Of a stretch of DNA of 35,566 nucleotides, positions 621 through 35,566 are shown one piece after another. Numbering within the stretch: position 1 is the stretch's first letter; each line of letters begins with the position of its first letter. Position numbers and translations under genes: made by a program. The stretch lies in IMG/VR virus record IMGVR_UViG_3300001851_000258, positions 1 through 35,566 of that record; one strand, given 5' to 3'. Below the pieces are notes generated by a model. The model saw nothing but the letters and a program-made list of their open reading frames with translations. It made no database searches and was not told the DNA's origin. This stretch comes from a virus.

Positions 621-627
621 AATTACC

Positions 628-1188
628 TCAAAAGTTTCTGCTAACTTCAACCCAGTTAATCCCATCCCAAGAAACAGTCAAAATTCTATCGTCTGTTATT
701 TCCGCATTTCCATTTAATGATAAACCGTCACCATCTTCAAATAAAACAGAGTTATCATCACTACAACCAACAAATTGAATTTGTTGCCCGTCAACTGCAC
801 CAGCCTCTACCTGTGGGTTAGCGGTAATATCAACAGAACCACCAGAGCCTTGAATGTAAATTTTTTGAAGTGGCGCAGTAGACGAGGATAAATTTCCCAA
901 AGCTACGCTAAATCCGGCAGACGTAATGCTTTTAGGTGCGGCTTTAGTTCCAACTATAGTCAATTGAGCCGCACCAACAGCTAACTCAGCCCAGTTTGTC
1001 GAAAGACCAGAATCAAGTTTCTTGTAAATTGCGCCTGTTGACTCGTTTAACAACAAAGAACCAATAGGCGCACTAACCGCAACACTTGTAGGGTTTGTGG
1101 AACTAGAATGAATCTCAGCCCCATCAAACAGATTTAGTATCTTTTTAAGAGACTTAACTTTAATTCCACTAAAAATGACTGCTGCCAT
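628..1188 (-). CDS. Small tail-fibre or appendage protein (186 aa)
   Basis: I do not recognise a named family. The protein is rich in Ser, Thr, Gly and Ala with few charged residues, as in beta-structured phage appendages. Residues 40-70 contain the fibre-type pattern PIGSLLLNESTGAIYKK followed by WAEL, a short beta module often seen near fibre N-termini. The C-terminus (DDRILTVSWDGINWVEVSR) is a beta hairpin pattern. It lies 3 bases after the 613-residue protein and 7 bases before the signal-peptide fibre gene, inside the fibre cluster on one strand, so a structural tail-tip or fibre role is likely. No enzyme motif is visible. Confidence 0.6.
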   Translation of the reverse strand: MAAVIFSGIKVKSLKKILNLFDGAEIHSSSTNPTSVAVSAPIGSLLLNESTGAIYKKLDSGLSTNWAELAVGAAQLTIVGTKAAPKSITSAGFSVALGNLSSSTAPLQKIYIQGSGGSVDITANPQVEAGAVDGQQIQFVGCSDDNSVLFEDGDGLSLNGNAEITDDRILTVSWDGINWVEVSRNF

Positions 1189-1191
1189 TTA

Positions 1192-3033: not shown

Positions 3034-3099
3034 TTAAATTTCCTCCAAAGCTAGGCGTTCCCGCACCAGCAGCCGTTTGGCTATGTCATTAATAAAGAA

Positions 3100-3165
3100 T
3101 CAAACTTCTGGTAGCAGTTCCACTGATTCCGGTTTTTCTTCTTCTTTTTTAGGCTTAAAAAGCAC
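3100..3165 (-). CDS. Possible 21-residue charged peptide
   Basis: In the 193-base gap between two large fibre genes the minus strand has a short frame with a GTG start and TGA stop. It encodes a Lys/Glu-rich peptide (FKPKKEEEKPESVELLPEV after the start). An AAAGG lies about 7 bases upstream of the GTG. Small charged peptides of this kind occur between phage structural genes, but nothing else supports translation. The rest of the gap holds the terminator-like hairpin at 3183-3212 and the TTTGGAGG ribosome site of the next gene. Confidence 0.25.
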   Translation of the reverse strand: MLFKPKKEEEKPESVELLPEV

Positions 3166-3182
3166 TGGAAAACCTTTCAAGT

Positions 3183-3212
3183 AAAAGGGAAGGAGAATTT
3201 CTCCCCCTCCCC
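3183..3212 (-). terminator. Terminator-like hairpin after the 533-residue coiled-coil fibre gene
   Basis: On the minus strand a G-rich left arm and a CTCC..TTCCC right arm pair in a stem of about nine base pairs (including G-U pairs) around a short AT-rich loop. The stem is followed directly by TTTTACTT. It begins 14 bases after the stop codon at 3227, and the next gene has its own strong ribosome site. Partial termination between the two fibre genes is likely. Confidence 0.55.
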
Positions 3213-3226
3213 AAATTATCTATTTA

Positions 3227-4828
3227 TTAATAGGAATAGTTAACTCTGATTATGTCGCCAACCTCTAGGGCAGACGATCCACCGGAAGCAACTTCCCCGC
3301 CGAACGTGATTCTGGTTTTTCCACCCACCACACTCACCGTGAAATCCTCATCTCCATGCAATGCAAGGCGATTTGCAAAAACCTGCATTGTGTTTTCGAT
3401 GGCGAGATAAGACAAATCAACAAATCCGGCACTTATGTGGCCACTGTTTAGAATGATTTTGTCCTTAAACGGATGAGTCAGGCCCGAGATGTAGCTTTTA
3501 ATTGCAGCAACAGAAGGCGCTTGATCGGTCTGACTGCCTCCCATCGAGTTAACTACAGCAGCAGTCTTGGCGCGAGCTTCAGTAAAATACTTATTGCTCG
3601 AACCTTCTACCAATCCATCTGTATTATCTGGAATCTGCGCGTCAACATAAGACTTCGTGACCGGATCAGCTTCAAGAATATCAAGACGGGCATCGAGAGC
3701 CGAATCAGCAGCAATGCGAGCAGCTTCTTCTGCATCAAGATCAGCAGCGGCAGAAGCAGCAAGGCTCGAAATTGCACCATTGATCGTGCTATCCGCCGAT
3801 TGAAACGCGGAAACAATCTCAGTCAAGGAATCGAGTGCTGCACCGTCTACGTTAGAGGTAATGAACTCGATTTTGTCTTCAATTTTCTTCAGCGTATCAT
3901 AGGCAGACGAAACACCGCCCTTCAGATCAACTATTTTCTGATCCGAATATGCCTGTGCATCTTCCAAAACCTGAACGTCACCAGCTTCACGGGCAGATTG
4001 TTCTCCCGAGATTGCGCTTTGGCGATCAAGGATTTCTTGGTCAATATCGCTTTGAAGTCCTTGGTCGGCAGCAATACGAGCGGATTGTTCAGCCGATACA
4101 GCAGCAACGCGAGCGGATTGTTCAGCCGATACAGCGGAAGCGCGTAGGGCGGCTTCAGCGGCAACAGCAGCATCGAGATCGTTCTTGTTTACTGCATCGG
4201 TTCCAACAGAAGCAGATCCAAGGTTTTTAATCTTAGAATTGCTAACGTCTACGTTATAGCCAGTGTTCGGCTGAAGTTTAATGTCTTGACCGGAGCTAAC
4301 AGTTTGCAAGAGCAAATTGCCAGCGGTTCCGCGTTTAATCGTCGCTCCAAAAAGTGTGCTTACATACCCTTCGAGAAACAACGCAGATGAGGAACCCAAT
4401 TTGTGTACGCCGTTCGCAACTGGCGTAATGTCTTTAGATTGCAAACCGCCAGTCATTGGGCGAGAGCCATCTAGACGAAGATCAAGCGCCTCTTGATTGT
4501 TAACATAAGTTTTTGTAACAGGATCAGCCTCTAGAACATCAAGGCGAGCGTCAAGGGCTTGATCGGCAGCAACGCGAGCCGATTCCTCTGCATCTATTTG
4601 TCCTTGAAGGTCAGAAACTTCACCATCAACATAAGTCTTGGTTACAGGATCAGCTTCGAGAACATCAAGGCGATCAGACAGGGCTTCGTCGGCAGCTTGT
4701 CGCGTTGCTGGTTCATTGTTTACCGCAGCAGGAAGCTGCTGCTGTGGAATAACACCATCTTGATCTAGTTCTGCAAGGCCATCGGCTTGTCCGACGCCTT
4801 CAAGCCACTTTTTGTTAATTTGAGACAT
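3227..4828 (-). CDS. Coiled-coil tail fibre protein with repeated modules (533 aa)
   Basis: A fibre-type protein. The N-terminus (MSQINKKWLEGVGQADGLAEL) leads into alpha-helical modules. The unit RLDVLEADPVTKTYV occurs at about residues 50-65 and 95-110, with a variant RLDILEADPVTKSYV at about 375-390, each preceded by a helix of the type AEESARVAADQALDA. The centre has three closely spaced SAEQSAR repeats, typical of trimeric coiled-coil phage fibre shafts. A beta segment at about 120-200 (SRPMTGGLQSKDI and following) is the common 'MTG-L' fibre module. The C-terminal 75 residues resemble the end of the neighbouring 124-residue protein. It is followed by a terminator-like hairpin. Fibre or fibre-shaft function is well supported; the receptor is unknown. 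Confidence 0.8.
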   Translation of the reverse strand: MSQINKKWLEGVGQADGLAELDQDGVIPQQQLPAAVNNEPATRQAADEALSDRLDVLEADPVTKTYVDGEVSDLQGQIDAEESARVAADQALDARLDVLEADPVTKTYVNNQEALDLRLDGSRPMTGGLQSKDITPVANGVHKLGSSSALFLEGYVSTLFGATIKRGTAGNLLLQTVSSGQDIKLQPNTGYNVDVSNSKIKNLGSASVGTDAVNKNDLDAAVAAEAALRASAVSAEQSARVAAVSAEQSARIAADQGLQSDIDQEILDRQSAISGEQSAREAGDVQVLEDAQAYSDQKIVDLKGGVSSAYDTLKKIEDKIEFITSNVDGAALDSLTEIVSAFQSADSTINGAISSLAASAAADLDAEEAARIAADSALDARLDILEADPVTKSYVDAQIPDNTDGLVEGSSNKYFTEARAKTAAVVNSMGGSQTDQAPSVAAIKSYISGLTHPFKDKIILNSGHISAGFVDLSYLAIENTMQVFANRLALHGDEDFTVSVVGGKTRITFGGEVASGGSSALEVGDIIRVNYSY

Positions 4829-4850
4829 TAAGTATCCTCCGTGTGATTAC

Positions 4851-5225
4851 TCAGTAAAAAATAGTCAGTCTATCATTCTCTTCCAATATCCCATCAAGGC
4901 CCATACCGTCCCAGGTAAGAATATTGTCGTTAAGAGTAAAGTCTAACCCAAACGTCTGTGGTGGGCCACCTGCTGGAATTAATAAAATTGCTCCATCCCT
5001 TTTGGGAGTGTCTAACAGTGTAATTTGCTTACTCTCAATCATTTCAGCAGTAAGAACTACAGGCTGTGCATAGAAGAAATTAGGGTAACCCTTTAGATAG
5101 GTTATGTTTCCGTTCGGTGCTTTAATTCCAAGCTGATTAGCATCTACAGAAAACAGAGCGGCGTAATTACCTGGTGGCCTAGCAATCTCTGAAGGCTCTG
5201 AAAAGCCAAGGTTAATTTGGCTCAT
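4851..5225 (-). CDS. Small fibre-associated protein (124 aa)
   Basis: It starts MSQIN like the downstream 533-residue fibre. The first half has a fibre-tip-like pattern (NYAALFSVDANQLGIKAPNGN, a short beta module). The second half, from VVLTAEMIESKQITL to the C-terminus LEENDRLTIFY, matches the pattern of the C-terminal domain of the 533-residue fibre (KIILNSGHISAGFVDL to LEVGDIIRVNYSY), so the two genes share a paralogous beta module. It overlaps the upstream 84-residue gene by ATGA and sits in the fibre cluster. I infer a small structural or fibre-attachment protein. No named family was recognised. Confidence 0.65.
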   Translation of the reverse strand: MSQINLGFSEPSEIARPPGNYAALFSVDANQLGIKAPNGNITYLKGYPNFFYAQPVVLTAEMIESKQITLLDTPKRDGAILLIPAGGPPQTFGLDFTLNDNILTWDGMGLDGILEENDRLTIFY

Positions 5226-5476
5226 AGTATTGTGTTCCTTCCATTAACAACAAAAATACCGTCTACACGTTGCATAGACGTTACAATGTTTTCCATGTGT
5301 TCCTCTACTACTACTGTAGTGTTGGCTCTAATCCACCAAATCGAACCTACCACCTGAGCAACTACGGTAACTGCAAGTTGGTCGATTGCCTGTTGTAGTG
5401 TATTAGCTGGTAATCCCGTTTGCGCGTTGTCGTAGACAATTCCAGAGGCAGATATATTTTTTCTAACAAAACTCAT
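5222..5476 (-). CDS. Small structural protein of the tail cluster (84 aa)
   Basis: An unrecognised short protein. Its N-terminus contains a helix-forming segment NTLQQAIDQLAVTVVAQV, a pattern common at the start of phage fibre or tail-tip proteins (a 'YDNAQTGLPANTLQQAIDQL' type linker). The C-terminal half is beta-rich (TTVVVEEHMENIVTSMQRV, then GIFVVNGRNTIL). It starts with ATG overlapping the previous stop (TAATG) and ends in ATGA overlap with the next gene, so it is translated in series with its neighbours. A minor virion or appendage role is inferred. Confidence 0.6.
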   Translation of the reverse strand: MSFVRKNISASGIVYDNAQTGLPANTLQQAIDQLAVTVVAQVVGSIWWIRANTTVVVEEHMENIVTSMQRVDGIFVVNGRNTIL

Positions 5477-5823
5477 TAGTTACTGCCTCTGTATACGCAG
5501 ACACTTCCTGAGCCTGACTCTTTCACGATGTAAACGCTATTATCTATCGTTATCTCAATAGGCGCAGCCTTGCTGAACACCTCTGAGTTAGAAAAAGAAA
5601 TGGTAGCATCAGGCCCATAATAGAAATTGCCATCGGAGAGGGGAACAATGCGAATGTATATCTGATTAGGGTCTGGCAATAGTACAACAGGAGTCGTGCC
5701 GATGATTACAACTTCTCTAGTCCAGCTTTTAATAATTGTACTGTCTTGAATGGCCTCAATTATCGCATCTTGTTTTTCTTCTGTGGCTAGGTTTGAGCCA
5801 GGACCGCCTCCTAGTTTGCTCAT
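5476..5823 (-). CDS. Small beta-rich virion protein (115 aa), distant member of a local paralogue family
   Basis: After a Gly-rich start (MSKLGGGPGSNLATEEKQDA, a common phage linker containing the ATEEKQDAI pattern) the remaining 80 residues read as one beta-sandwich: a strand-rich core TTPVVLLPDP, then YYGPDATISFSNSEVF, AAPIEITIDN and a C-terminal strand. The order of strands follows that of the proteins at 5942-6235 and 6591-6872, so I regard it as a diverged paralogue. It is linked to the preceding 40-residue gene by an ATGA overlap and to the next by TAATG. A decoration, connector or tail-surface role is inferred from context only. Confidence 0.6.
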   Translation of the reverse strand: MSKLGGGPGSNLATEEKQDAIIEAIQDSTIIKSWTREVVIIGTTPVVLLPDPNQIYIRIVPLSDGNFYYGPDATISFSNSEVFSKAAPIEITIDNSVYIVKESGSGSVCVYRGSN

Positions 5824-5942
5824 CGCTTACTCCACAACAAAAAACTCTCTACCGCTGTTACTATGAACAGAACAAAGCTGATGCGCTTCCACAGCTTGAG
5901 TCGTTTTAGGAATAAGTATTGAGGCACTTTAATTCCACCCAT
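5820..5942 (-). CDS. 40-residue single-span membrane protein
   Basis: A short gene that fills the gap between two structural genes exactly. Its ATG overlaps the stop of the 97-residue gene as TAATG, and its TGA overlaps the next ATG as ATGA. It encodes a basic N-terminus (MGGIKVPQYLFLKRLKLWKR) followed by one hydrophobic span (ISFVLFIVTAVESFLLW) and a short basic end. The double overlap makes it very likely to be translated. Membrane placement is predicted from hydrophobicity. The function is unknown; a small holin-like or inner-membrane factor is possible, but nothing proves it. Confidence 0.65.
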   Translation of the reverse strand: MGGIKVPQYLFLKRLKLWKRISFVLFIVTAVESFLLWSKR

Positions 5943-6235
5943 TATTGCATCTCCTGAATGAGTAGGCGCTTGGTTCCAGTGCCGGAATGAATTGCATGAA
6001 TCTCACCAACCCATAGGTTAGTGTTGTCTATTTCAAAGGAGAAGCCGCCAGCCGATATTCTTATACCATTGTTAATTGAGGCTGGTGAGCCAAAGGAAAT
6101 ATAAATATTTGCATTTGAATCATTAACCAATACACAGAATTTTCTGTGTTCATTAGCTGGCAGGATAACCGAGCTAGTAGTCCCTACGTCTACCGCTTGC
6201 TGATTAACCTTGCGAAGAGGGTAAAAAGTGGCCAA
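5942..6235 (-). CDS. Small beta-sandwich virion protein (97 aa), paralogue of 6591-6872
   Basis: The start is a TTG at 6235, chosen because TAGGAG lies about 8 bases upstream and no in-frame ATG is near. This puts the first 46 bases inside the end of the preceding gene in another frame. The sequence has the pattern of a small phage head or tail surface protein: SSVILPANEHRKFCVLVND, then NIYISFGSPA, then GIRISAGGFSFEID and a C-terminal strand. The same order (QVLAANEARKRAIIVN, VWLSFGEAA, GVYLAPAGGSFEID) occurs in the protein at 6591-6872, so the two arose by duplication. The function is probably structural, for example capsid decoration or tail surface. Confidence 0.7.
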   Translation of the reverse strand: MATFYPLRKVNQQAVDVGTTSSVILPANEHRKFCVLVNDSNANIYISFGSPASINNGIRISAGGFSFEIDNTNLWVGEIHAIHSGTGTKRLLIQEMQ

Positions 6236-6591
6236 AGCGAAACTCCTAAAGCAAATGCGGCAGCTAACACTTTTTTATTAACTACCATTACCTTCACTAT
6301 TCTAGTGACCTCAACAATTTGAGGGTCTGCCTTTTCAGGCTTAGACTGCTTTAAAAAACCCAGTTCTCTCATCGCCTGATTGTATCTATTCAATAAATCA
6401 GGGTCATCTCTCAATACTTCTTTTTCTACCGTAACATGATTAGTTTTAACTATAGCTGGTTTTGCTTTTTCTATTGTGAGTTGTGTTTCTAGCTCCGCAA
6501 TCCTAGCAAGTACGTCAGGCGAGGTTACATAAACTTCCCGTGGAGGAGAGCCATCGTGTACAGCCGGATTGCGAAGCATTTTTTTTCCCAT
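6190..6591 (-). CDS. Helical protein with C-terminal membrane segment (133 aa)
   Basis: An unrecognised protein starting with ATG that overlaps the previous stop (TAATG at 6591). Residues 25-45 form a helix (VLARIAELETQLTIEKAK) likely to be coiled-coil. Residues 50-100 are charged and helical. Residues 108-128 form a hydrophobic span (VLAAAFALGVSLWPLFTLFA) followed by a basic end (RLISKR). A C-terminal membrane anchor in a virion-gene cluster could mark a lysis or DNA-entry protein, but this is inference. The last 46 bases are shared with the start of the downstream 97-residue gene. Confidence 0.6.
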   Translation of the reverse strand: MGKKMLRNPAVHDGSPPREVYVTSPDVLARIAELETQLTIEKAKPAIVKTNHVTVEKEVLRDDPDLLNRYNQAMRELGFLKQSKPEKADPQIVEVTRIVKVMVVNKKVLAAAFALGVSLWPLFTLFARLISKR

Positions 6592-6872
6592 TAGAAAAAC
6601 TCTGCCGTTCCTACAGTATTCGGTCCAGCCGCAGCTATTCCATTAATTACACCAGTGTATAGTTCGTCTGGATCAATTTCAAATGAGCCACCAGCCGGAG
6701 CAAGGTATACACCTTTTCCGATTACAGCAGCCTCACCAAAACTCAACCAAACACCATTTACGCCAGCGTTTACTATAATGGCACGTTTTCTTGCTTCGTT
6801 AGCCGCCAATACTTGCGTACTAGCCGCACCAACTGATGCAGTAGCGTTGTTTACGTTACGGTATTTAATCAT
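6591..6872 (-). CDS. Small beta-sandwich virion protein (93 aa), paralogue of 5942-6235
   Basis: This is the best-preserved member of a local family of three small proteins. The strands are visible as STQVLAANEARKRAIIVN, GVWLSFGEAAVIG, KGVYLAPAGGSFEIDPDE and a C-terminal strand. Proteins with this layout occur next to the coat gene in many tailed phages and are thought to be minor head or tail surface proteins; that role is inferred here from position. It follows a GC-rich hairpin at 6889-6904 and is coupled to the next gene by TAATG. Confidence 0.65.
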   Translation of the reverse strand: MIKYRNVNNATASVGAASTQVLAANEARKRAIIVNAGVNGVWLSFGEAAVIGKGVYLAPAGGSFEIDPDELYTGVINGIAAAGPNTVGTAEFF

Positions 6873-6888
6873 AAAGCCTCAAAAGTAA

Positions 6889-6904
6889 GGGGAGTTTCCT
6901 CCCC
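6889..6904 (-). terminator. Perfect GC-rich hairpin with GAAA tetraloop
   Basis: On the minus strand the sequence reads GGGGAG-GAAA-CTCCCC, a perfect six-base-pair stem with a GNRA-type tetraloop, then TTACTTTT. It lies 7 bases beyond the stop of the 121-residue gene at 6912. It may act as a weak terminator or as a 3' stabilising or processing hairpin that sets the level of downstream transcripts. A similar element follows the coat gene. Confidence 0.5.
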
Positions 6905-6911
6905 CATGAAT

Positions 6912-7277
6912 TTAGGCTACTACGAATTTTCCGATAAGCAAGTCAACTGCTACAGGGTCAGTTTCAGTAGTTCCGTCACCAGCGGCATTGAAAACAAGTT
7001 TCATTACCGTAGCAGAAGCCGCACCATCAATGTTACCAACTAGGCCAGCAACATTAGCGTCAGCAACTTCAATTCCCATTCCGAGCAGCTTCAGGGGAAC
7101 AAGTCCACCAGAGGCAAACGTCAGGGTTACATCACCAGCGCCGTTGTCGGTCAAGGCAATGGCTTCGTTTTCCGGGTTCCACTGAATGCTAGGAACACCA
7201 GCGGTCCAGATAATGCGAAGGGGAATCATTTTCAGCACTTTGTGCTGGAGAGTATCAAGTTGGAGTTTATTTCCCAT
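6912..7277 (-). CDS. Putative capsid-associated protein after the coat gene (121 aa)
   Basis: This gene lies directly downstream of the coat gene and is flanked by a GC-rich hairpin on each side, an arrangement that suggests a protein made in high but separately tuned amounts. The sequence is beta-rich and acidic (IQWNPENEAIALTDNGAGDV, then LTFASGGLVPLKLLGMGIEV, and a long Ala/Gly-rich C-terminal part ending in LLIGKFVVA). It resembles small capsid decoration or head-completion proteins in composition, but I do not recognise a named family. A structural role is inferred from position and composition. Confidence 0.6.
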   Translation of the reverse strand: MGNKLQLDTLQHKVLKMIPLRIIWTAGVPSIQWNPENEAIALTDNGAGDVTLTFASGGLVPLKLLGMGIEVADANVAGLVGNIDGAASATVMKLVFNAAGDGTTETDPVAVDLLIGKFVVA

Positions 7278-7309
7278 GATTTAAGTCCTTTTCAAAAAGT
7301 AATGATAAT

Positions 7310-7325
7310 GGGGGGATTCCCCCCC
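7310..7325 (-). terminator. GC-rich hairpin after the coat gene
   Basis: Six Gs and seven Cs separated by ATT form a strong stem of six pairs immediately after the coat stop codon at 7333. On the minus strand it is followed by ATTATCATTACTTTTTG. The U-run is displaced from the stem by about 11 bases, so it may be a leaky terminator or a 3' mRNA stabiliser rather than a full stop. Confidence 0.5.
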
Positions 7326-7332
7326 ATCAAGG

Positions 7333-8583
7333 TTATACTGCGAAGTTACGCAGACGGGCTACGCTGTTCGGCTTGGAGCAGAACAATTCAAAGTAACCGC
7401 CGTAACGTGCATTGTAGAGGTCTTTGTTCGGGTCGCGCAGAAGGATCGTTCCATCATCGTCGAACCAGCCAAAGTCTTGACGCATTACGAGTTGCATATA
7501 CTTGGTGTTGAGGAAGTAAATCTCATCGTCATCGCACATTTGCGAAGAGATGAGAGGGAACGGTCCATCGTCACCCATCAGTTCAATTCCTTTGAAACCG
7601 ATTTTGGTGTCAGAGGATTTAACTTCGAGTACGTTGTAACGCTTGTGGTCTTCTGCTTGGCTCTTAAGTGCAGCCTTGGTGTTGTGCGAGCAGATAGCCA
7701 GGTTAGGGCTAACTCCAAGCTCATCTTCCAAGCTGGACACGATGTCATTAATATCACCGTAAGCAAGCGTAGCAGCAGCCAGGTCGGAAACGATACCCTT
7801 AAACTCAGGGTTAGAGGCTTGGCTGATACCATAAAGAGTGCCAGCAGAGATTGGAGCGATTTTTTTGAGTCCTACACACTCAGCATTGCGGTTTCCTTCC
7901 CAGTACAGGATATCAGCAGCAGCAGGAGCAGCAGCCGAGCCAGTGCTTACGAGTACGAGGGAGAGGGTCGTAGCGTCGAAACCAACAACCTCAACCGTCA
8001 ACTGGTAAACGCCAGCAGCGGTATAAAGGTCCATTTTTGCACCACGAGGGAAAAACTTCTTTTTATACTTAGGAGCAAGTACGCCAGCCACCGACATGGT
8101 AACAACCCAGGGAGAGGCGCTGGTTCCTGCACCACTGTCAAGGGAAGCAACTGCACCAAGCTTGCCCGACTCATCGCCGAACAGTGCGCGTTCTACCATG
8201 TGAAGGTTAAAGCCTTCGAGTACAGCTTCTACTTCGTCAACGGTTACTCGGGCGAAAGCACCACGGTCGTTGCGGGAAGCTACGATAGCTTCACGCTCGT
8301 ACTCAGCGGTAGCATAAGCGCGTTTAGCAGGAAACACAGCCTGTTCACGGGGAGCAGACTTAGGAGCAGGAAGGTTTTGACCACTTGCGCGGTAACCGAG
8401 TCCTACAGCCGAGCCGAACCGCACAGGTTGTACAAATTGCTTACCAACAAACTCTACGCTTTTGTTCTTCATCAGAATCGAGGCGAGAGGAGTCTTAGCA
8501 TTTACAAGAGATTGATCCGCGCCAGAGCCGTAAAACTCTTTAAATAGCGCATTTTCCATTCCGACACTTCGAGGTTGAGCCAT
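7333..8583 (-). CDS. Major capsid (coat) protein
   Basis: A 416-residue protein placed right after the scaffold gene and the terminase, the standard position for the coat gene. The length fits HK97-fold coat proteins of podoviruses. The N-terminal part (residues 1-60, MAQPRSVGMENALFKEFYGS) is helical. It is followed by an E-loop-like stretch (PAPKSAPREQAVFPAKRAYA) and a long helix (VDEVEAVLEGFNLHMVERALFG) like the spine helix. The segment from about residue 150 to 235, rich in Val, Thr and Ala, looks like an inserted beta domain, as in P22 coat. The C-terminal part (IYFLNTKYMQLVMRQDFGWF and RDPNKDLYNARYGGYFELF) matches the P-domain style of many phage coats. The call rests on context and layout; fold prediction would confirm it. 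Confidence 0.85.
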   Translation of the reverse strand: MAQPRSVGMENALFKEFYGSGADQSLVNAKTPLASILMKNKSVEFVGKQFVQPVRFGSAVGLGYRASGQNLPAPKSAPREQAVFPAKRAYATAEYEREAIVASRNDRGAFARVTVDEVEAVLEGFNLHMVERALFGDESGKLGAVASLDSGAGTSASPWVVTMSVAGVLAPKYKKKFFPRGAKMDLYTAAGVYQLTVEVVGFDATTLSLVLVSTGSAAAPAAADILYWEGNRNAECVGLKKIAPISAGTLYGISQASNPEFKGIVSDLAAATLAYGDINDIVSSLEDELGVSPNLAICSHNTKAALKSQAEDHKRYNVLEVKSSDTKIGFKGIELMGDDGPFPLISSQMCDDDEIYFLNTKYMQLVMRQDFGWFDDDGTILLRDPNKDLYNARYGGYFELFCSKPNSVARLRNFAV

Positions 8584-8597
8584 TTTCTATTCCCTTC

Positions 8598-9395
8598 TTA
8601 GAGGCGACCAGCTAGGCGCTTTACGTCTTCTAGACTCATAGCTTTTTTGTCTTCTGAGCCAGTTCCACGAGGAGCGTCTACTACCGCCTTCTTTTTATTT
8701 GTTTCCACTTTGTTAATCAAAGCAGTTTGTTTTTCGGCGTTCTGCTTTTTGACCTCTTCGGAGACCAGAAAGGAAACATCCTCAATGGACATATCGAAAA
8801 TGCCTTGTTGTAGAAGGGCTTTATATTGCTGTTTAACGTAAGACTTTAACCATGGCGTACTAATCTCAGGAAACTTCTGACTAGCGTCATTTAGTTCCTG
8901 CTCAATAGCTGCCTTTTCCTGCTCAATCGCAGCGGCTTCTTGTTGCTGCTGAAATTGGGCAAGACGTTCCTCAGTCTGCCGCAAACGCAATTCTAGGGGA
9001 TTTAACTCACTTCCTTGTTCTGCGGTGGCGGCTTCTGCTGCCATACGTTGAACGGAAAACGGAGCCTTTTTCCCTGTTAGCGCCTCATACGTTGCCGCTG
9101 GGTCTGCTTCTAAGCCTTGGAGCAAGCGACTAAAAAAGTCTTTTTGCTTCCGTTCAGATTCCGCCTTCTGCTGCATTGCGAGTTGTCCCGCTTTGCCGAG
9201 TTGGGCGTAACGCTTAGTAGTTTCCCAGTCCCACTCTTCCTCTTGGCCATTGATTTTAAATTTCTCTTTGCCAGAGGAAAACGGGTTGTACGTTGCAGTT
9301 TCCTGAGCCGTTTCAGTCTCAGCCGCTTCAGGAGTTGCTGGTGCAATGTCCTGTTGTTGAGGTTCTACGGTGTCAGCTACTTGTACGTCTTCCAT
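8598..9395 (-). CDS. Scaffold protein
   Basis: A 265-residue, highly charged, almost entirely helical protein between the large terminase and coat genes. The N-terminus is acidic and Pro/Gln-rich (residues 1-35). A small ordered segment follows (KFKINGQEEEWDWETTKRYAQLG, about residues 46-68), a pattern often seen at the start of podovirus scaffolds. A long coiled-coil of Glu, Gln and Ala spans about residues 130-175. The C-terminus is basic and helical (ending LEDVKRLAGRL), as expected for a coat-binding helix. It assembles with coat protein into the procapsid and is then lost. The start follows AAAGGAG. Confidence 0.85.
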   Translation of the reverse strand: MEDVQVADTVEPQQQDIAPATPEAAETETAQETATYNPFSSGKEKFKINGQEEEWDWETTKRYAQLGKAGQLAMQQKAESERKQKDFFSRLLQGLEADPAATYEALTGKKAPFSVQRMAAEAATAEQGSELNPLELRLRQTEERLAQFQQQQEAAAIEQEKAAIEQELNDASQKFPEISTPWLKSYVKQQYKALLQQGIFDMSIEDVSFLVSEEVKKQNAEKQTALINKVETNKKKAVVDAPRGTGSEDKKAMSLEDVKRLAGRL

Positions 9396-15832: not shown

Positions 15833-15928
15833 ACGTATAAATTATGCAGAAATGTATAAAACTCTTTATAGCCTGTTTATTTTTTCTCAATTGAATGTTG
15901 CTTAAAAACAACAAAATGGAGAATGAAA

Positions 15929-16294
15929 ATGAAAAAAGTAATTCAAGTGATTGATGAAGACGCGGCAGAAAAATATGCAAATGTTCATTATCGTGAAGAT
16001 TCGCGAGAACTTTATGGAAACATAACCCGTGACTTCCTTGCGGGATGCGCTTACGGGCGTGAGCAAGAGAAGAAGAAGCTGGAAATTGCTTTAGATACTT
16101 TAGGCAAGATAGCACTGAGGGTCGATAAGTGTTTGCTCGGTCCACCTATTGATACAGCAAATGATTTTATTGAACGGGCCAGTAGTTCAGATGATTTAAT
16201 TTGTTGGTCTTTTGAATTGGGAAGTCATAGAGCCTATTCAGAATGTGCAATCGAAGCAAAAGAAGTCTTAAAACAAATCGAAGGAAAGGAATGA
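15929..16294 (+). CDS. Hypothetical protein with an MKKVIQV start (121 aa)
   Basis: The ATG at 15929 is preferred over 15923 because the GGAG is 7 bases away from the former and only 1 from the latter. The first seven residues (MKKVIQV) and the upstream leader are nearly identical to those of the next gene, although the rest differs. The body is helical and has an ITRDFLAGCAYGREQEKKK segment like that in many small phage proteins. The C-terminal part contains two cysteines in helical surroundings (DDLICWSFELGSHRAYSECA). The function is unknown. It is likely co-transcribed with the Sm-like gene that follows 3 bases later. Confidence 0.6.
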   Translation: MKKVIQVIDEDAAEKYANVHYREDSRELYGNITRDFLAGCAYGREQEKKKLEIALDTLGKIALRVDKCLLGPPIDTANDFIERASSSDDLICWSFELGSHRAYSECAIEAKEVLKQIEGKE

Positions 16295-16297
16295 AAA

Positions 16298-16567
16298 ATG
16301 AAAAAAGTAATTCAAGTGACCGAAGTTGATGGCGAGGGATTAGAGGCTTTTATTTATGAAAGAATTTTTATTGTGTGCAGATCGTATTTCTATGCCGGAA
16401 CGCTAACGAGAATTTATGACGATTGCGTTTTGTTAGAGGATGCTCGCTTTGTATTGGAAAGCGGAAGCTTTGAAGGAAAAGGAATTGCTAACTCCGAAAA
16501 AGTAAACGGCGGAAAGATTTACGTTACAAAAAACTCAATCGAATCCTTTTTTCAAAGCCACGAATAA
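16298..16567 (+). CDS. Small Sm-like (LSm-type) beta-barrel protein (89 aa)
   Basis: The pattern after the MKKVIQV start ([43 protein letters not shown]) follows the Sm1-style layout: a helix, a strand, a tight Gly turn with Leu, then Asp-x3 and a strand ending in an Asp/Ala. I recall proteins of this type as conserved hypotheticals in many phages and bacteria, but this is memory, not a database result. The AAGGA is 7 bases before the ATG. Its stop lies in the first copy of a 13-base tandem repeat and is followed by the G-rich hexamer gene. An RNA- or DNA-binding role is inferred from the fold pattern. Confidence 0.55.
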
Positions 16568-16597: not shown

Positions 16598-16772
16598 AAA
16601 GAAAAAATACTATCGGTTTTGGGATAAATCTAGGGCTAGGGCTAGGGCTGGGGCTGGGGCTGGGGCTTGGGCTAGGGCTGGGGCTGGGGCTTGGGCTAGG
16701 GCTTGGGGTTGGGATGGGGCTGGGTCTAGGGCTGGGTCTAGGGCTTGGGCTTGGGATGGGGCTAAAAAATAA
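16593..16772 (+). CDS. Dipeptide-repeat protein (Arg/Gly/Trp-Ala), 59 aa
   Basis: A frame running exactly from the third TAATG to TAA at 16770-16772. After a short start ([13 protein letters not shown]) it is almost pure X-Ala, with X being Arg, Gly or Trp, plus a few Gly-Trp-Asp and Gly-Ser units, and it ends in Lys-Lys. The underlying DNA is the GGGCTN hexamer array. The next gene starts right after the stop, which supports real coding. All six frames of such repeats tend to be open, so coding is not proven by openness alone. Aromatic, basic, low-complexity chains of this sort could bind nucleic acid or condense. A G-rich site placed between two genes is the alternative. Confidence 0.55.
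16633..16763 (+). repeat. Degenerate GGGCTN hexamer array (G-quadruplex candidate)
   Basis: About 131 bases of imperfect hexamers GGGCTA, GGGCTG and GGGCTT, with small variations (GGTTGGGATGG, GGGTCTAGG). Runs of three or four Gs are separated by two to four bases, which is classic for intramolecular G-quadruplexes on the plus strand DNA or RNA. The array coincides with the dipeptide-repeat gene. The local composition is unlike the rest of the window, which suggests expansion by slippage. Confidence 0.9.
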
Positions 16773-30249: not shown

Positions 30250-31029
30250 TTAAAGTTCAAATGCAGTAAGCCTAGCGTATGCAAGACTAATGGTTGATAA
30301 AGGTCCAGAAAGTGGCTGTTGGCACAACAAAGAAAATGTATATGTATATGTTCCAGCCGCTTGAATATCTATTCCAACAAAGTTTGCTGGAATTAACGTA
30401 TAAACTGTATTTGAAACCGTTGTGCTAGTTGTTGTTGTGGTTGTATATGCTGGAGCTGGTGGACTTACAGGAGTTGTAGTTGAAGAAGAACTAGAACTAG
30501 CAGCAGACGTAATAGTACAATTTATTGGAAAAACACCAACTTCAACAACACCGCGTCTAAATGCTCCATAACCAAAACTTTGATTACCAGAATAATTAGT
30601 AAAAGAAATAGATGCCCCTTGAAAACTAGCACTATCAAGAACCAACATAACTGGTCTTCCTGTGGTCGTAATAGTCACAGATAACCCAGGAACATTTACA
30701 TAAAGGCCACTTTGAGTAGCAAAACCCAACCCTGTTTGGTTTGCAGACTGTTGACCAAGTGCTGCCAATTTAGGTTTTGTTACTGCGTTATCAGCTAGTT
30801 TTCCAGTAGTTACATTAAGGTCTAAAATCTTAGCTGTGGTAACTGCGTCATTAGCAATCTTTCCAGTGGTAATAGCTAAATCAATAATCCCGCCAGAGGG
30901 AATTTGTACACCAGCACCAGCAGTATGGTCATGCGCGTCTATATTATCAAATGAGGCAGAAACAGAGTTAGGATAGTCAGCGTCCCCAACCTCGGGAACC
31001 TGAAGCGACATATTTGGCTTAATAATCAT
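30250..31029 (-). CDS. Fibre-like protein with Thr/Ser tract (259 aa)
   Basis: I use the ATG at 31029, which overlaps the stop of the lipoprotein gene (ATGA), rather than an in-frame ATG 27 bases earlier inside that gene. The N-terminus (MIIKPNMSLQVPEVGDADYP) and the segment with DNIDAHDHTAGAGVQIPSGG are typical of phage tail-fibre attachment domains (the 'HDH' and IPSGG signature). Repeats of the type ITTGKIANDAVTTAKI and VTTGKLADNAVTKPKL at about residues 55-90 form a short shaft. The middle is a beta-sandwich, and a Ser/Thr/Pro tract (SSSSSTTTPVSPPAPA then TTTTTTSTTV) separates it from a C-terminal beta domain. A fibre or spike role is likely. Confidence 0.7.
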   Translation of the reverse strand: MIIKPNMSLQVPEVGDADYPNSVSASFDNIDAHDHTAGAGVQIPSGGIIDLAITTGKIANDAVTTAKILDLNVTTGKLADNAVTKPKLAALGQQSANQTGLGFATQSGLYVNVPGLSVTITTTGRPVMLVLDSASFQGASISFTNYSGNQSFGYGAFRRGVVEVGVFPINCTITSAASSSSSSTTTPVSPPAPAYTTTTTTSTTVSNTVYTLIPANFVGIDIQAAGTYTYTFSLLCQQPLSGPLSTISLAYARLTAFEL

Positions 31030-31346
31030 TTCTGCACCATTTGACCTTTCTGGCAATCTATCAAGGCTTGCTTAGTCTGCTTATAGTCAGCTATTAGCTT
31101 GTTTAATTCTGGATATAAAACAACTACGCATTTTTGTATCAGTCTGCCCTGCTCATCTCGCTCGGTTGGTTTGCATTCTAACAGCTCTTTGTCTGTTCCT
31201 GGCCTTGCACCGAGTAGTTTTCCAGCAGGAAACTCCCAAACGCCGATAGGGCTGGCATGAAAGAACTGATAGGGAAAGTTAATTTGCGCCACCCCGCAGG
31301 AGACAAAAAACACAGCTCCCAAGCAAAACCAGCCAATTCTTTTCAC
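31026..31346 (-). CDS. Putative lipoprotein with C-terminal coiled coil (106 aa), spanin candidate
   Basis: I place the start at GTG 31346, which overlaps the previous stop (GTGA); an upstream ATG would add four residues. The N-terminus (VKRIGWFCLGAVFFVSC) is a signal peptide with a near-lipobox FVSC. Cys would be lipidated after cleavage. The mature part contains two more cysteines (about 57 and 72) and a C-terminal helix (LNKLIADYKQTKQALIDCQK). Located at the end of the lysis-like cassette (membrane-helix protein, 72-residue holin-type protein, 60-residue protein, lipoprotein), it could be an outer-membrane spanin with the protein at 32428-32703 as partner. The assignment is an inference. 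Confidence 0.5.
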   Translation of the reverse strand: MKRIGWFCLGAVFFVSCGVAQINFPYQFFHASPIGVWEFPAGKLLGARPGTDKELLECKPTERDEQGRLIQKCVVVLYPELNKLIADYKQTKQALIDCQKGQMVQK

Positions 31347-31525
31347 TGATCCTCCCACTTCGGACGGTCAGAGGCGGCAGAATCAGCCAACCACTTATCA
31401 ACCTGCAATACAATTTCTTGCCGCTTCTCTTCTGGAGTCTTTGAAAGCAATTTAACTAATGCCCCTAATTCAGCGGGAAACTTTAGTAAAGCGACCAAAA
31501 CTTCGAGAATTAGGGTAATGCTCAT
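31343..31525 (-). CDS. Small amphipathic protein of the lysis-like cassette (60 aa)
   Basis: The first half (SITLILEVLVALLKFPAELG) is hydrophobic and helical. The second half is charged (LLSKTPEEKRQEIVLQVDKW) and ends in RPKWEDQ. Proteins of this shape are frequent beside the holin-type gene in phages, but I know no function for them. It is joined to its neighbours by TAATG at the start and GTGA at the end. A holin partner or regulator is inferred from position only. Confidence 0.55.
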   Translation of the reverse strand: MSITLILEVLVALLKFPAELGALVKLLSKTPEEKRQEIVLQVDKWLADSAASDRPKWEDQ

Positions 31526-31722
31526 TAGCTAATCGAAACCCTATCTTTAGTAATTAAGCGAAGAACAATGTTAAGAATTGCCCAAAGAGCAGAGGACTCA
31601 GCAGAATACTCTTTAATCACAGCGGCAACTTCAGGCTTAAATACTGCAATAACACCAGCAATAGCCATTAAAAGATTGACCAAAATGATTTTAGACTGCC
31701 ACCATGGTTTAACTGTTTCCAT
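31525..31722 (-). CDS. Putative holin-type membrane protein (65 aa)
   Basis: The start is set at ATG 31722 (METVKPWWQSKIILVNLL), since AAGGAG lies 7 bases upstream and the ATG overlaps the previous stop (TAATG); a longer version would begin inside the upstream gene. The WWQSK start, a span (IILVNLLMAIAGVIAVF), a loop with PEVAAVIKE and a second span (ALWAILNIVLRLI) ending in charged TKDRVSIS follow a pattern I associate with phage holin-like proteins of the 'WWQSKTIW...NIVLRLIT' type. Two spans and a charged C-terminus fit a class II-like holin. The lysozyme it would help lies on the opposite strand, more than 16 kb away. Confidence 0.55.
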   Translation of the reverse strand: METVKPWWQSKIILVNLLMAIAGVIAVFKPEVAAVIKEYSAESSALWAILNIVLRLITKDRVSIS

Positions 31723-32438
31723 TAGATTACTCCTTGCGACCATTTAACAAATGGATGCGTTTGTTCGTAATAGGTTCGGAAAATGCCGCCCATAGAATCA
31801 GGGTAGGCTTCAATTATACTGCGCTTCCATTTTCGCACAGCCCAATCACATAGAAAATACTTTTTCCCGCTCATTTCATAGACAGATACATAATGCCAAG
31901 TTAACAGCTTTCCAGATGCATCTTTTGAATACGCATCAGCCGCAACACCTATTGCCCACCATAATCTATCAAATAAATTGAGATTTTCACTAGCGCACAG
32001 TTTTAAGTGTTGAACTAATCCAGGTAATCTCCAGAATTGAGCATTAAACCAGTCCTGAATCTTTCCGCCCCTAAAGAAAGACCAATGATTAGACTTTCCA
32101 TGAGAGTAAATAACCCATGCCGCAGCACCGCCCCCAAGGAAGGAAAGGGTAGCTAATCCTACATAATCATCATGGGTTTGTGGGTCATTCCACTTGTGTG
32201 GACCGCGAGTAATTACGCCAGGACGCTCTTTAAGGTGAGATTTTGCATATAACTCAGCAGAATGCTCTTTAGCTTTATCGTAAGAACCAAATAGTTTTGC
32301 GGTTAAAAGACCATAATGTCCGGCATATAAAATAGCATTTCCATCTAACCCACCGTCCATATAACGAGACATAAAAGGATAGTGTTGGAAATATGGATTA
32401 AAGTCATATTGCATGGCTTGGATTAAATCAGCGGCCAT
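31722..32438 (-). CDS. Hypothetical protein of 238 aa in the lysis-like cassette
   Basis: A soluble-looking protein rich in aromatic and His residues. Segments such as FNPYFQHYPFMSRYMDGGLD, HDDYVGLATLSFLGGGAAAW, NLFDRLWWAIGVAADAYS and YFLCDWAVRKWKRSI resemble a family of phage proteins I have seen in related clusters; the alternation of helices and short loops could be an alpha/alpha toroid-type fold. No active-site motif is certain, though clustered Asp/His residues in HDDY are conserved-looking. It begins inside the previous gene's end (11-base overlap) and is coupled to the holin-type gene. Possible enzymatic role on the cell wall or host envelope is speculation. Confidence 0.5.
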   Translation of the reverse strand: MAADLIQAMQYDFNPYFQHYPFMSRYMDGGLDGNAILYAGHYGLLTAKLFGSYDKAKEHSAELYAKSHLKERPGVITRGPHKWNDPQTHDDYVGLATLSFLGGGAAAWVIYSHGKSNHWSFFRGGKIQDWFNAQFWRLPGLVQHLKLCASENLNLFDRLWWAIGVAADAYSKDASGKLLTWHYVSVYEMSGKKYFLCDWAVRKWKRSIIEAYPDSMGGIFRTYYEQTHPFVKWSQGVI

Positions 32439-32703
32439 CGGGCTTGGTCCTCATTAAAAAGCCTTCGATTTGAGCCAATTTTATATTTATTTCTTTTAAT
32501 TCTATAGCTAGTCGTTCGTCTATTGCCTCTTGCTTTAGTCTTAGAGCATCTACGTCTTTTTGAGTTTCTGCGTTTAATTCTTTAGAAAGAGACAATTCTT
32601 TAGACAGTCCAAGAACCTTCCCCTCCAATCGAATGAGCCAAATCACAACGGCTAGGGCAGAAATTATTATCTCAAAAAGTAACTCAGGGTTTGCCCAATC
32701 CAT
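32428..32703 (-). CDS. Membrane-anchored coiled-coil protein (91 aa), inner-spanin candidate
   Basis: An N-terminal hydrophobic segment (LLFEIIISALAVVIWLIRL) is followed by a long helix (EGKVLGLSKELSLSKELNAE, then AIDERLAIELKEINIKLAQI). This topology and length match inner-membrane spanins and also some holin-associated coiled-coil proteins. It opens the run of small lysis-like genes 32703-31026. The heptad-like repeats GLSKELSLSKEL suggest oligomerisation. Another possibility is a membrane-bound assembly chaperone. Confidence 0.5.
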   Translation of the reverse strand: MDWANPELLFEIIISALAVVIWLIRLEGKVLGLSKELSLSKELNAETQKDVDALRLKQEAIDERLAIELKEINIKLAQIEGFLMRTKPDGR

Positions 32704-32732: not shown

Positions 32733-34628
32733 TTAGTTTTTTGGTCCTTGGCAGATTATGTAGAACGCATTATCTACCGACGAAAAAGCATTATTAAATG
32801 TCCGTCCAGTTACCCCGGAAATTGTTGGCACTGTATTAAGTGCAGCAAAATACGCGGTTCCAGTCACATCCGTTGAAATTATACAAGTTGGCGCCGATGA
32901 GAAAGCTCCGCTTGCAAAATTTAACGTGCATTGACCAGTTGCGGGATGACTAACTGAACTAATCCATGATCCAGATTGCGAGCTAACGCTGCATGTTCCA
33001 TTGTTTGCAATAGTTGCCCGCTCAATTCTCTCCTGCCCGCTTGTGTTGCTAGTAACGCTTCCCTGCAATACAGGAACCGCCATCCCTTGATCGAGAGCTG
33101 TGATAGTCCACATCACGCCAGGGATTCCGCTTCCATAACTTTGAATATAAGCAGTTCCAGCTTGTAGCGTAGACCCTTGCAGACGGATAGTTTTGCTGCT
33201 CGTATCAGTAGCGTTATACGCTCCGCAAACCGTAACAGCAGTATTGTAGTTATTTGCCTGCGAGCCAAACGCAAAGGCATTTGTTCCATCGCTCAGTTGG
33301 TATTTAGTAACAACACCTAAAGCATTTCCATAAGCATTTACAACGGCGCAGATATTATAGTATCCGATTTTTGGAAAACTTAGCACAAGCCCTGGCTGAG
33401 TCGTTGCACCGCCTTGGGAGGTTACGGTGCCGAAATTTCGGTTAGTTACTTGCGTTAATGTGATGCTGGCGTTTCCAGGAAAGTCGATCGGCGTTCCCGT
33501 AGATGTGACCTGCCAAAGCTGCGAGCCGGATGCGTTTCCATGGTACCCACTCCAGCTTGCAGGGGTTTGGTCGATCTTTACCGCCTGCTGCGTGCTGCTT
33601 GGGAAGTACCAGAGTTTGAATGTTCCGGGCGTTGTGTTTGTACCTTCTAACAATCCTCCAGAACTTGCTGCTTCTGACTTAGCATAAACCTGCCACGTTA
33701 CGTTTGTCTGAGGAGCAGAATAACTAAACGACTGATTAAGTGTTGCTGCGTAAACAGAAGAACCTGCATTCAAAAATGCAGATGATTCTTTTGCATTGGT
33801 AGTCCCATCAGTAAATTGAAACCAAGAAGTTTTCCCACTTGTCGTAGCTCCTACTCGGCCCTCATATTGAATCATATATTCGCCGGGAGGAAGGGAGGCG
33901 AATTTAATCCCTGGGACGTTAGTTGCAGGAGCTTGAGCTAACCCAAATGTCGCATAGGAACACCCCGTTTGCGTTCCCATTGTTGCATAGCCAGCAGTCG
34001 AAGTACCAAGCCAGTAAGTAGAGCATCCAGTTACAACAGCACCACCAACTAGCTGCGCTTGAGCCACGGTTCCCACGTTCTTTGGCGATCCCATGTACGC
34101 ATTGTCGATGTAAATGGTTGATGGGCTTGCTACGTTTGATGTGATTTTCAGACGGTTATTAGTAGATCCGCAAGGGTAGTTAATCTCTACATAACGAGCC
34201 GTGGTAGCAGTAGGAAGAGAAACGGCAGAGGCGAGCGTATCAGTCGCGTTATCGACGCTTACCGAATAGTCTCCAGTAGCTCCTGCATATTTGTAATAAA
34301 GCCCTAGGTAACAGGCACCGCCTTGAAGGCCAGTCGGTACGGGTGCAGATTGCGACACAAGGAATTTTCCAGAGGCGCTTGCGGTGTATGCTCCGGATGT
34401 AGTTCCAAAAAGCAGGTTAGCCCCGCCTGTTACAGTCGTAAACGTATCACCGCTTGAAGCTGTCCAGTAGCTAGTATTCCCTAGTTCAAAATCTGGATTG
34501 TATCCCGTTAGCTCGTTAATGCCCGTTAGGTTTAAAATGCTTTGACCAATTACAGGCGTTTGAATTGCGGAGGTAGCTCCGAAAGCTGTTGAAGTGATAA
34601 ATGCCAATAGAAGAAATAGCTTTTTCAT
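32733..34628 (-). CDS. Signal-peptide-bearing multi-domain fibre-like protein (631 aa)
   Basis: Residues 1-18 (MKKLFLLLAFITSTAFGA) form a clear Sec signal peptide. A jelly-roll module follows (GYNPDFELGNTSYWTASSGD at about 41-60, then YPCGSTNNRLKITSN and IYIDNAYMGS at about 150-180), matching the protein at the left edge. Further beta domains lie at about 205-290 and 300-540, several with paired cysteines. The C-terminal domain (TIANNGTCSVSSQSGSWISS, then FASGAFSSAPTCIIST, ending FYIICQGPKN) has Cys residues suited to disulfides in the periplasm or outside. The start overlaps the previous stop by TAATG. A surface-exposed adhesin or fibre with secretion is inferred; the signal peptide is unusual for a virion protein. 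Confidence 0.75.
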   Translation of the reverse strand: MKKLFLLLAFITSTAFGATSAIQTPVIGQSILNLTGINELTGYNPDFELGNTSYWTASSGDTFTTVTGGANLLFGTTSGAYTASASGKFLVSQSAPVPTGLQGGACYLGLYYKYAGATGDYSVSVDNATDTLASAVSLPTATTARYVEINYPCGSTNNRLKITSNVASPSTIYIDNAYMGSPKNVGTVAQAQLVGGAVVTGCSTYWLGTSTAGYATMGTQTGCSYATFGLAQAPATNVPGIKFASLPPGEYMIQYEGRVGATTSGKTSWFQFTDGTTNAKESSAFLNAGSSVYAATLNQSFSYSAPQTNVTWQVYAKSEAASSGGLLEGTNTTPGTFKLWYFPSSTQQAVKIDQTPASWSGYHGNASGSQLWQVTSTGTPIDFPGNASITLTQVTNRNFGTVTSQGGATTQPGLVLSFPKIGYYNICAVVNAYGNALGVVTKYQLSDGTNAFAFGSQANNYNTAVTVCGAYNATDTSSKTIRLQGSTLQAGTAYIQSYGSGIPGVMWTITALDQGMAVPVLQGSVTSNTSGQERIERATIANNGTCSVSSQSGSWISSVSHPATGQCTLNFASGAFSSAPTCIISTDVTGTAYFAALNTVPTISGVTGRTFNNAFSSVDNAFYIICQGPKN

Positions 34629-35566
34629 TAGTTGCTCACTTTTACGATGGAAAAATTGGTTGTTGCTGTAGAAGACAAGCTGTTTCCGTTATCATGCGGC
34701 CTTACAACATCCCCTGCATTTAAAAATCCAGACCAACCAACAAAACACCTTCGGCCCGCAGTATTTTGTTCATTCATTGCCCGAAAACCTTGAGCATAAG
34801 TAATTGAGTAAATAGTAATTGATGTGGTTCCAGTGGTAGCTAAATTTTCGTTTACAGTAATGCCTATGCCAGCACCCGCACCGCCTCCATTTGTATAAGA
34901 AATGGCATAAACTCCATCCTCGTTTATAGTGAAAGACGCTCCATTTGTTGAGCTGTCGGCATAGGTAATTGCTGAACCCAAATTTTTTCGTATATTATTA
35001 AATCTTGGAATCATTGTTGCCGTTGATCCGTATACGTTCCCAGTGTCAACGGTAACCTCAGACCTCGGTGCCGATACCTGCCCGCTGCTCGTTGCAGTCC
35101 AGCCAGCAATGGGAACAATTGCATTGATGGTTAATTGAAAAGCGCCTGTGATACCGCCGTTTGAAGAAGTCATAAAGTTAGTCGCATCTGAATTGCTTCC
35201 CGCAATGATGGCTAAATTTGTGGAATTGTATGCAACCGCATATCCGGCAATCCCTCGAATCCCATACCAAGATGCAATACCAACACCGCCTTTTGATTGA
35301 ACTCCGGCGCTTAGGGATATTTTATTTGTGTCCATTGTAAAAGAGCCAGGAAGTGGAAAAAGATAGGTTCCACTTCCTACTGAACCACCACCCGTTTGTG
35401 TGTATGTAATTGCAATCTGCATCGAATCCCCTATCCTTCGATATGCCGCTTGCATTGATGCGCCAGTTCCCAAAGTTGGTGGCGTTGTTGTTGCTCCAAT
35501 TGTTGGCGTATAACTAATCCAGTCGCTCATTACTAGCTGCGGAATAGAGGCGGGGCCAATTACATA
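34628..35566 (-). CDS. C-terminal part of a fibre-like protein, 5' end beyond the window
   Basis: The frame is open to the right edge: 12 codons precede the ATG at 35530 (YVIGPASIPQLV), and no ribosome site precedes that ATG, so the true start is probably outside. The visible domains are a segment with SDWISYTPTIGATTTPPTLG, a tail-fibre signature linker; a beta-domain (RRIGDSMQIAITYTQTGGGS) of the kind common in fibre tips; and a C-terminal module (residues 170-300 from the ATG, VYGSTATMIPRFNNIRKNLG and so on) with a TNF-like/C1q-like beta pattern. It is coupled to the 631-residue gene by TAATG. It may be the continuation of the gene cut at base 1. Confidence 0.7.
   Translation of the reverse strand, partial: YVIGPASIPQLVMSDWISYTPTIGATTTPPTLGTGASMQAAYRRIGDSMQIAITYTQTGGGSVGSGTYLFPLPGSFTMDTNKISLSAGVQSKGGVGIASWYGIRGIAGYAVAYNSTNLAIIAGSNSDATNFMTSSNGGITGAFQLTINAIVPIAGWTATSSGQVSAPRSEVTVDTGNVYGSTATMIPRFNNIRKNLGSAITYADSSTNGASFTINEDGVYAISYTNGGGAGAGIGITVNENLATTGTTSITIYSITYAQGFRAMNEQNTAGRRCFVGWSGFLNAGDVVRPHDNGNSLSSTATTNFSIVKVSN

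Follow-up and report, generated by a model that had tools for sequence, protein, structure and literature searches.

The genes that we call A and B, which lie side by side in the genome of an uncultured phage, appear from their sequences to belong to an undescribed family of fibre proteins with an export signal. Export of the family members is a well-supported prediction. Our overall reading, which is tentative and falls a little short of even chances, is that they are Sec-exported modular fibre proteins that join the virions at lysis, in a host likely to belong to the Bdellovibrionota. The accepted view places the assembly of tail fibres in the cytoplasm. Conserved signals on them would mean either that fibres can also be assembled by a route not recognised so far, or that phages make a class of exported adhesins that has gone unrecognised. 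The window, by which we mean the whole stretch of 35,566 nucleotides analysed (IMG/VR record IMGVR_UViG_3300001851_000258), holds A in full and B split by its two ends, with the following features:

32733..34628, minus strand: gene A, 631-aa fibre-like protein predicted to be exported (ORF call, ATG start, family alignment A4)
34575..34628, minus strand: predicted signal peptide of A, residues 1 to ~18 (sequence and rule)
34080..34526, minus strand: N-terminal CBM-like base domain of A, residues 35-183, with cysteine pair C106/C153 (profile, CBM16 match, fold)
33612..34028, minus strand: TNF/C1q-like module at residues 201-339 of A, a homologue of the tip of MAT fibre Bd2734 (8OKW match, Foldseek)
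32736..33071, minus strand: C-terminal tip module of A, ~residues 520-631, common to L013 and, less closely, to L059 and L060 (alignments)
34628..35566, minus strand: 3' part of gene B, 610-aa fibre-like protein predicted to be exported, split by the window end (contig L001)
L001:4654-4927: 274 nt of B absent between window positions 35566 and 1 (contig L001)
1..620, minus strand: 5' part of gene B, start codon at 620 (contig L001)
564-620, minus strand: predicted signal peptide of B, MKNSLFILIFSLITNQALA
~81-536, minus strand: CBM-like domain of B
628..1188, minus strand: 186-aa fibre-like gene, 7 nt upstream of B, without signal peptide
30250..31056, minus strand: tail-fibre gene with the PNMSL...IDAHDHT N-domain, without signal peptide (PHROG tail fibre)

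The missing part of B is supplied by contig L001, which matches the window at 99.8-99.9%, spans both of its ends and adds the 274 nt. Because L001 bridges both ends, the phage genome should be circularly permuted or closed, at ~35.8 kb. B lies directly upstream of A, the last base of its stop codon being the first base of the A start, and has its own signal peptide followed by the same N-terminal domain as A. Both are encoded among virion genes of a phage record, not in a predator genome, and the presence of an SU10-type capsid protein, portal and adaptor makes this phage podovirus-like. Some fibre genes of this phage lack a signal peptide, among them 628..1188; in phages G004 and G005 the C-terminal module of this gene occurs in proteins that start with a signal peptide. 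An S74 domain was looked for in the window phage and not found.

A preliminary description of this DNA had proposed a Sec signal peptide on A, and the N-terminus, the rule call and the conservation across the family all bear this out. More specifically, the N-terminus of A (MKKLFLLLAFITSTAFGATSA) shows Lys-Lys, then a hydrophobic core, then an AFG/A-type cleavage context, with predicted cleavage between residues 15 and 18 (exact site ambiguous). Signal peptides were called by a rule that scores n-region charge, h-region and cleavage context, in place of the SignalP prediction that had been suggested. The rule is positive in 14/14 family members, compared with 23/2263 internal Met-led segments and 16/479 first-start N-termini of non-member proteins of at least 150 aa, the latter 16 possibly including other exported-looking fibre-region proteins from the same phages. 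When the first 30 residues were shuffled, the rule stayed positive in 2.7% of shuffles for B and in 22% for A, so that much of the score of A, taken by itself, comes from composition. Family-wide conservation is thus the stronger evidence for a signal than A's own score; a chance N-terminus was rejected on this conservation against the background rates, an accident being very unlikely for a signal kept across 13 phages. An ordinary tail-fibre annotation for A was likewise considered and set aside, since Pfam assigns it no family and PHROGs give a sub-threshold match only (E 0.047).

Behind the signal peptide, A and B carry base domains of ~150 aa that match each other pairwise at E 1e-6. The base-domain profile matches CBM16 (2ZEW) weakly (E 2e-4) and over nearly its full length. 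Searched against known families, the 14 base domains gave one match to CBM_4_9 (E 0.01), one to RRM_8 (E 0.0053) and one to phrog_11445 'minor tail protein' (4e-4). Modelled as a monomer with AlphaFold, A reaches a mean pLDDT of 63, and the model is usable for the base domain (pLDDT mostly 72-94 by 10-residue block) and the first module only. Its best PDB match by Foldseek is 8OKW, with a TM of 0.82 by target length, and the next fold matches include CBM22, CBM4 and CBM16 structures. The base domain thus resembles these carbohydrate-binding modules in fold but, unlike them, is not attached to an enzyme, and sugar binding is putative. Residues 201-339 of A match 8OKW in sequence as well (E 6.5e-8), as does the L008 protein (E 2.8e-11). 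According to the available text of PMC10769870, 8OKW is residues 691-843 of Bd2734, the TNF-like tip of a MAT fibre, and MAT fibres are exported fibres with which Bdellovibrio handles prey. The jelly-roll domains of the preliminary description are therefore confirmed both by this sequence match and by the fold, and its disulfide-capable beta domains agree with the 10 cysteines of A, two of them within the N-terminal domain, where a disulfide is predicted. The protein is also fibre-like as described, in that A is modular and beta-rich, has modules in common with other phage fibres and is encoded in a tail-fibre gene cluster; what sets it apart from a phage tail fibre is the export signal found throughout the family. 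The signal peptide on B, the family itself, the homology to a MAT tip and phage phi1422 go beyond the preliminary description, which offered envelope display, release with the lysate or superinfection exclusion as possible fates of the protein.

Profile searches place 14 proteins from 13 uncultured phages of different tail types in this family: A and B, together with L008, L011, L012, L013, L015, L057, L059-L063 and L065, all from viral contigs scanned with A plus relatives. The last scan returned 16 loci, of which three repeat L011, L012 and L015, seven are new members and six were left uncounted (L064, L066-L070; E 5e-7 or worse), in which an NPGFE/W-type domain sits in other proteins that do not start with a signal peptide; one of them, L067, has a single rule-positive internal Met, far from the start. 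L004 was also left uncounted, with only an internal module of B in common and no family match. Its ORF at 7620-9149, a fibre without signal peptide, matches B residues 188-305 at 42%, and this common module suggests that modules pass between exported and non-exported fibres. Every base domain contains exactly two cysteines (14/14), which change position as a pair: in alignment A8 they occupy columns 99/153 in seven members, 103/183 in six and 88/153 in one. C-terminal modules are exchanged among members, the last module of A being that of L013 and the last module of B that of L011.

The family crosses tail types. Phages G003 and G005 look podovirus-like, with capsid and portal-size proteins common to both, and the window portal is 20% identical to that of G005. 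G004 has baseplate proteins in common with the myovirus phi1422, and G001, G002, L057 and L061 are siphovirus-like, as judged by eye from a tape-measure-like ORF. At both ends of the G002 contig (L018/L019; 28-726 and 37853-38551) lies a 232-aa ORF with the same start, which suggests that this phage genome is complete and terminally redundant. Searched by tblastn, the A, B, L008, L011 and L015 proteins had no match among 50,697 named-phage records, and the L015 protein had none in plasmids. L063, searched with E up to 10, matched 74 records, none of them Bdellovibrio, the best being a Manatee Spring contig (7e-4). Because these tblastn searches also miss phi1422, other hosts stay compatible with the negatives.

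Family genes are tightly coupled to the gene before them. The distance from upstream stop to member start is -17 to +24 nt in 15/15 cases, phi1422 gp68 included, and a purine-rich Shine-Dalgarno-like sequence precedes many of the starts. The upstream neighbour is usually a fibre gene, and in 9/13 phages an upstream gene (10 proteins in all) ends in a C-terminal domain of ~155 aa. Genes with this C-domain are mostly adjacent to the member, with another small ORF between in L062; their N-termini differ, and those of L062 and L065 also have signal peptides. In L062, positions 38-7830 hold five signal-peptide genes, with a small ORF between the second and third, and then an ORF that by eye looks patatin-like. 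The C-domain occurs in none of the remaining proteins among the 896 searched, controls included. Its predicted structure (pLDDT 87) gives weak CBM-like matches only (TM ~0.5 or less). We read the C-domain gene and the family gene as a putative adaptor/distal-fibre cassette, in which the two domains would dock. Searches for the C-domain gave no match in the window phage, in G001, G004 or G005, or in phi1422, and it therefore cannot be the only dock. The arrangement recalls two-part fibres such as T4 gp36/gp37, in which proximal and distal fibre proteins are encoded side by side and the distal one has a constant base and variable tips; the difference is that the distal candidate here has an export signal, while T4 fibres, to our knowledge, carry none.

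Signals also occur on fibre genes outside the family. The IDAHDHT fibre has one at 2 of the 22 loci examined (G005 and L038), in a set of 23 loci that contains several near-duplicates and from which L028, the same phage as L027, was omitted. In the G005 homologue MKRLFLLLLSCNVFA precedes the same domain as in window 30250-31056, the two proteins being 48% identical in alignment A5 and 36-38% by blastp. G003 encodes a further exported-looking fibre-like protein of 637 aa, and G004 two further exported-looking fibre-like genes ahead of its family member. All four of the longest fibre-like proteins in this region of G005 look exported, counting a 525-aa protein that was judged so by eye and that fails the rule, having no Lys/Arg. 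The G005 pattern makes most sense if a fibre that has been exported is still able to function in the virion.

A cultured phage offers a link to the host. Phage phi1422 (NC_019525) was isolated on B. bacteriovorus, and its gene gp68 follows the tail fibre gene gp67 at a distance of 1 nt. The gp68 protein begins with a signal peptide, and its base domain, which is related to that of the family, contains a cysteine pair. The similarity is remote and the C-terminal modules are mostly other: gp68 reaches 27 bits against the base-domain profile with filters off, is not reported among 896 proteins with default filters, and is given a probability of 37-56% by hhalign (E 1e-4 at 56%). L063 matches it at E 2.7e-8 within a 19-protein set, and we regard gp68 as a probable remote relative of the family. 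A second phi1422 protein, gp75 (L026 44298-44810), also has a signal peptide and has a short stretch in common with the window IDAHDHT fibre (E 2e-4). The available text of PMC3391216 places phi1422 in the phiPLPE group, in which it is joined by phages of other bacteria. In the five relatives of other hosts used as controls (PY100 and phage 138 left out), 8/186 ORFs of at least 150 aa pass the signal rule, and by coordinates none of these overlaps an annotated tail-fibre gene. Scans of genome contigs for a host confirmed nothing, so the assignment rests on phi1422 and the Bd2734 tip. Bdellovibrionota are the probable host group of the window phage, given gp68, the position of the signal-bearing ORFs of the five relatives off fibre genes, and the Bd2734 homology.

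The likeness to MAT fibres of Bdellovibrio bacteriovorus goes beyond this one tip. In the available text of PMC10769870, MAT proteins consist of a signal peptide, a conserved beta-rich domain of ~130 aa that forms a constant N-terminal base, and mosaic, exchangeable C-terminal adhesive tips, and the phage family has the same overall plan. It differs in being encoded in phage fibre gene clusters, whereas MAT fibres are encoded by the predator genome, and probably in its base, which is CBM-like, the MAT base being described there as having no structural homologue in the PDB. The family offers a concrete connection, on the phage side, to how the MAT fibres used by Bdellovibrio in prey recognition arose and swap their tips. 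The literature searched for export signals on tail fibres and for Bdellovibrio phage fibres, in which subscription papers are thinly covered, holds no report of exported tail fibres of this kind; as far as their available text goes, PMC7504290 and PMC3338817 mention signal sequences for spanins and lysis genes only.

Under the reading we prefer, each member would consist of a cleavable signal peptide, a CBM-like base containing a single disulfide, and adhesive modules, TNF/C1q-like ones among them, that can be exchanged. Members would be produced late, be exported via Sec, and then fold and oxidise in the periplasm; once the inner membrane is breached at lysis they would join the virions and form distal fibres or tips there, with the base domain docked on a fibre or adaptor built in the cytoplasm. 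Export and cleavage need not keep a fibre off the virion. Since Bdellovibrio grows within closed prey, exported fibres and released virions would stay in one small space. A bolder version, which we hold to be doubtful, is that tailed phages of predatory bacteria build adaptors on the virion in the cytoplasm, load Sec-exported, periplasm-oxidised distal fibres only at lysis of the cell or of the closed prey ghost around the predator, and exchange tips with the MAT fibres of their hosts, so that phage adsorption and bacterial predation would draw on one pool of modules. The route can be tested with cultured phage phi1422.

It is highly improbable that the hydrophobic N-terminus is retained without being a working export signal, in an ordinary fibre assembled in the cytoplasm with, for example, the helix packing into the tail. 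Well-studied tail fibres do assemble in the cytoplasm, but all members retain the n-region charge, the core and a cleavage context of small residues while the signal sequences themselves vary, as expected of Sec signals, and the disulfide-type cysteine pattern fits export. Cysteine pairs alone do not prove periplasmic folding, since virions of phage Milano have disulfides (PMC10811340, available text). If the proteins are exported, they might never join the virion and might instead mask the receptor or surface glycans late in infection, from the periplasm or the outer surface, so that superinfection is prevented or progeny are kept from sticking to the dying cell or debris. The adhesive modules, a CBM-like base that could hold the protein on an envelope glycan, and the non-exported fibre-like protein encoded just upstream in most phages would all suit such a function. 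We consider it unlikely, as the exported modules in the window phage are not copies of the non-exported fibre tips and as nearly all fibre-like genes of G005 have signal peptides, which would leave few for its virion. A superinfection exclusion protein would be expected to be expressed early or from a prophage, whereas the family genes lie on the structural strand in close coupling with fibre genes; this tight coupling, mostly to fibre genes, argues for a late virion-related role and not for a classical lysogenic exclusion gene, and receptor masking is still compatible with it.

A less probable account again is that the proteins are phage-encoded MAT-like adhesins displayed on the infected predator, altering which prey or surfaces it binds. 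The shared plan speaks for it, as does the module that is directly homologous to the Bd2734 tip, and a dock on the host surface would explain one base domain across different tail types equally well. Against this, fibre-gene coupling suggests late expression, with little time for changed behaviour, none of the window proteins scanned (a subset of its ORFs) could be recognised as a lysogeny product, and the bases probably differ, as described above.

Several further features of the window were noted beside the predicted export of fibres. Directly after A, positions 31026-32703 hold small membrane/coiled-coil ORFs and a lipobox-like N-terminus (FVSC), which by eye resemble a lysis cassette. The 624-aa protein at 19205-21079 matches part of a PHROG that bears the label endolysin (E 5.5e-13) and is possibly an ejected virion protein. 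Between two small genes, positions 16618-16767 of the plus strand form a G-rich array of six-base units (CTAGGG/CTGGGG/CTTGGG) with a telomere-like or G-quadruplex-like look, and a near-identical repeat of ~30 nt (15921-15950 and 16289-16319) covers the start regions of two adjacent genes.
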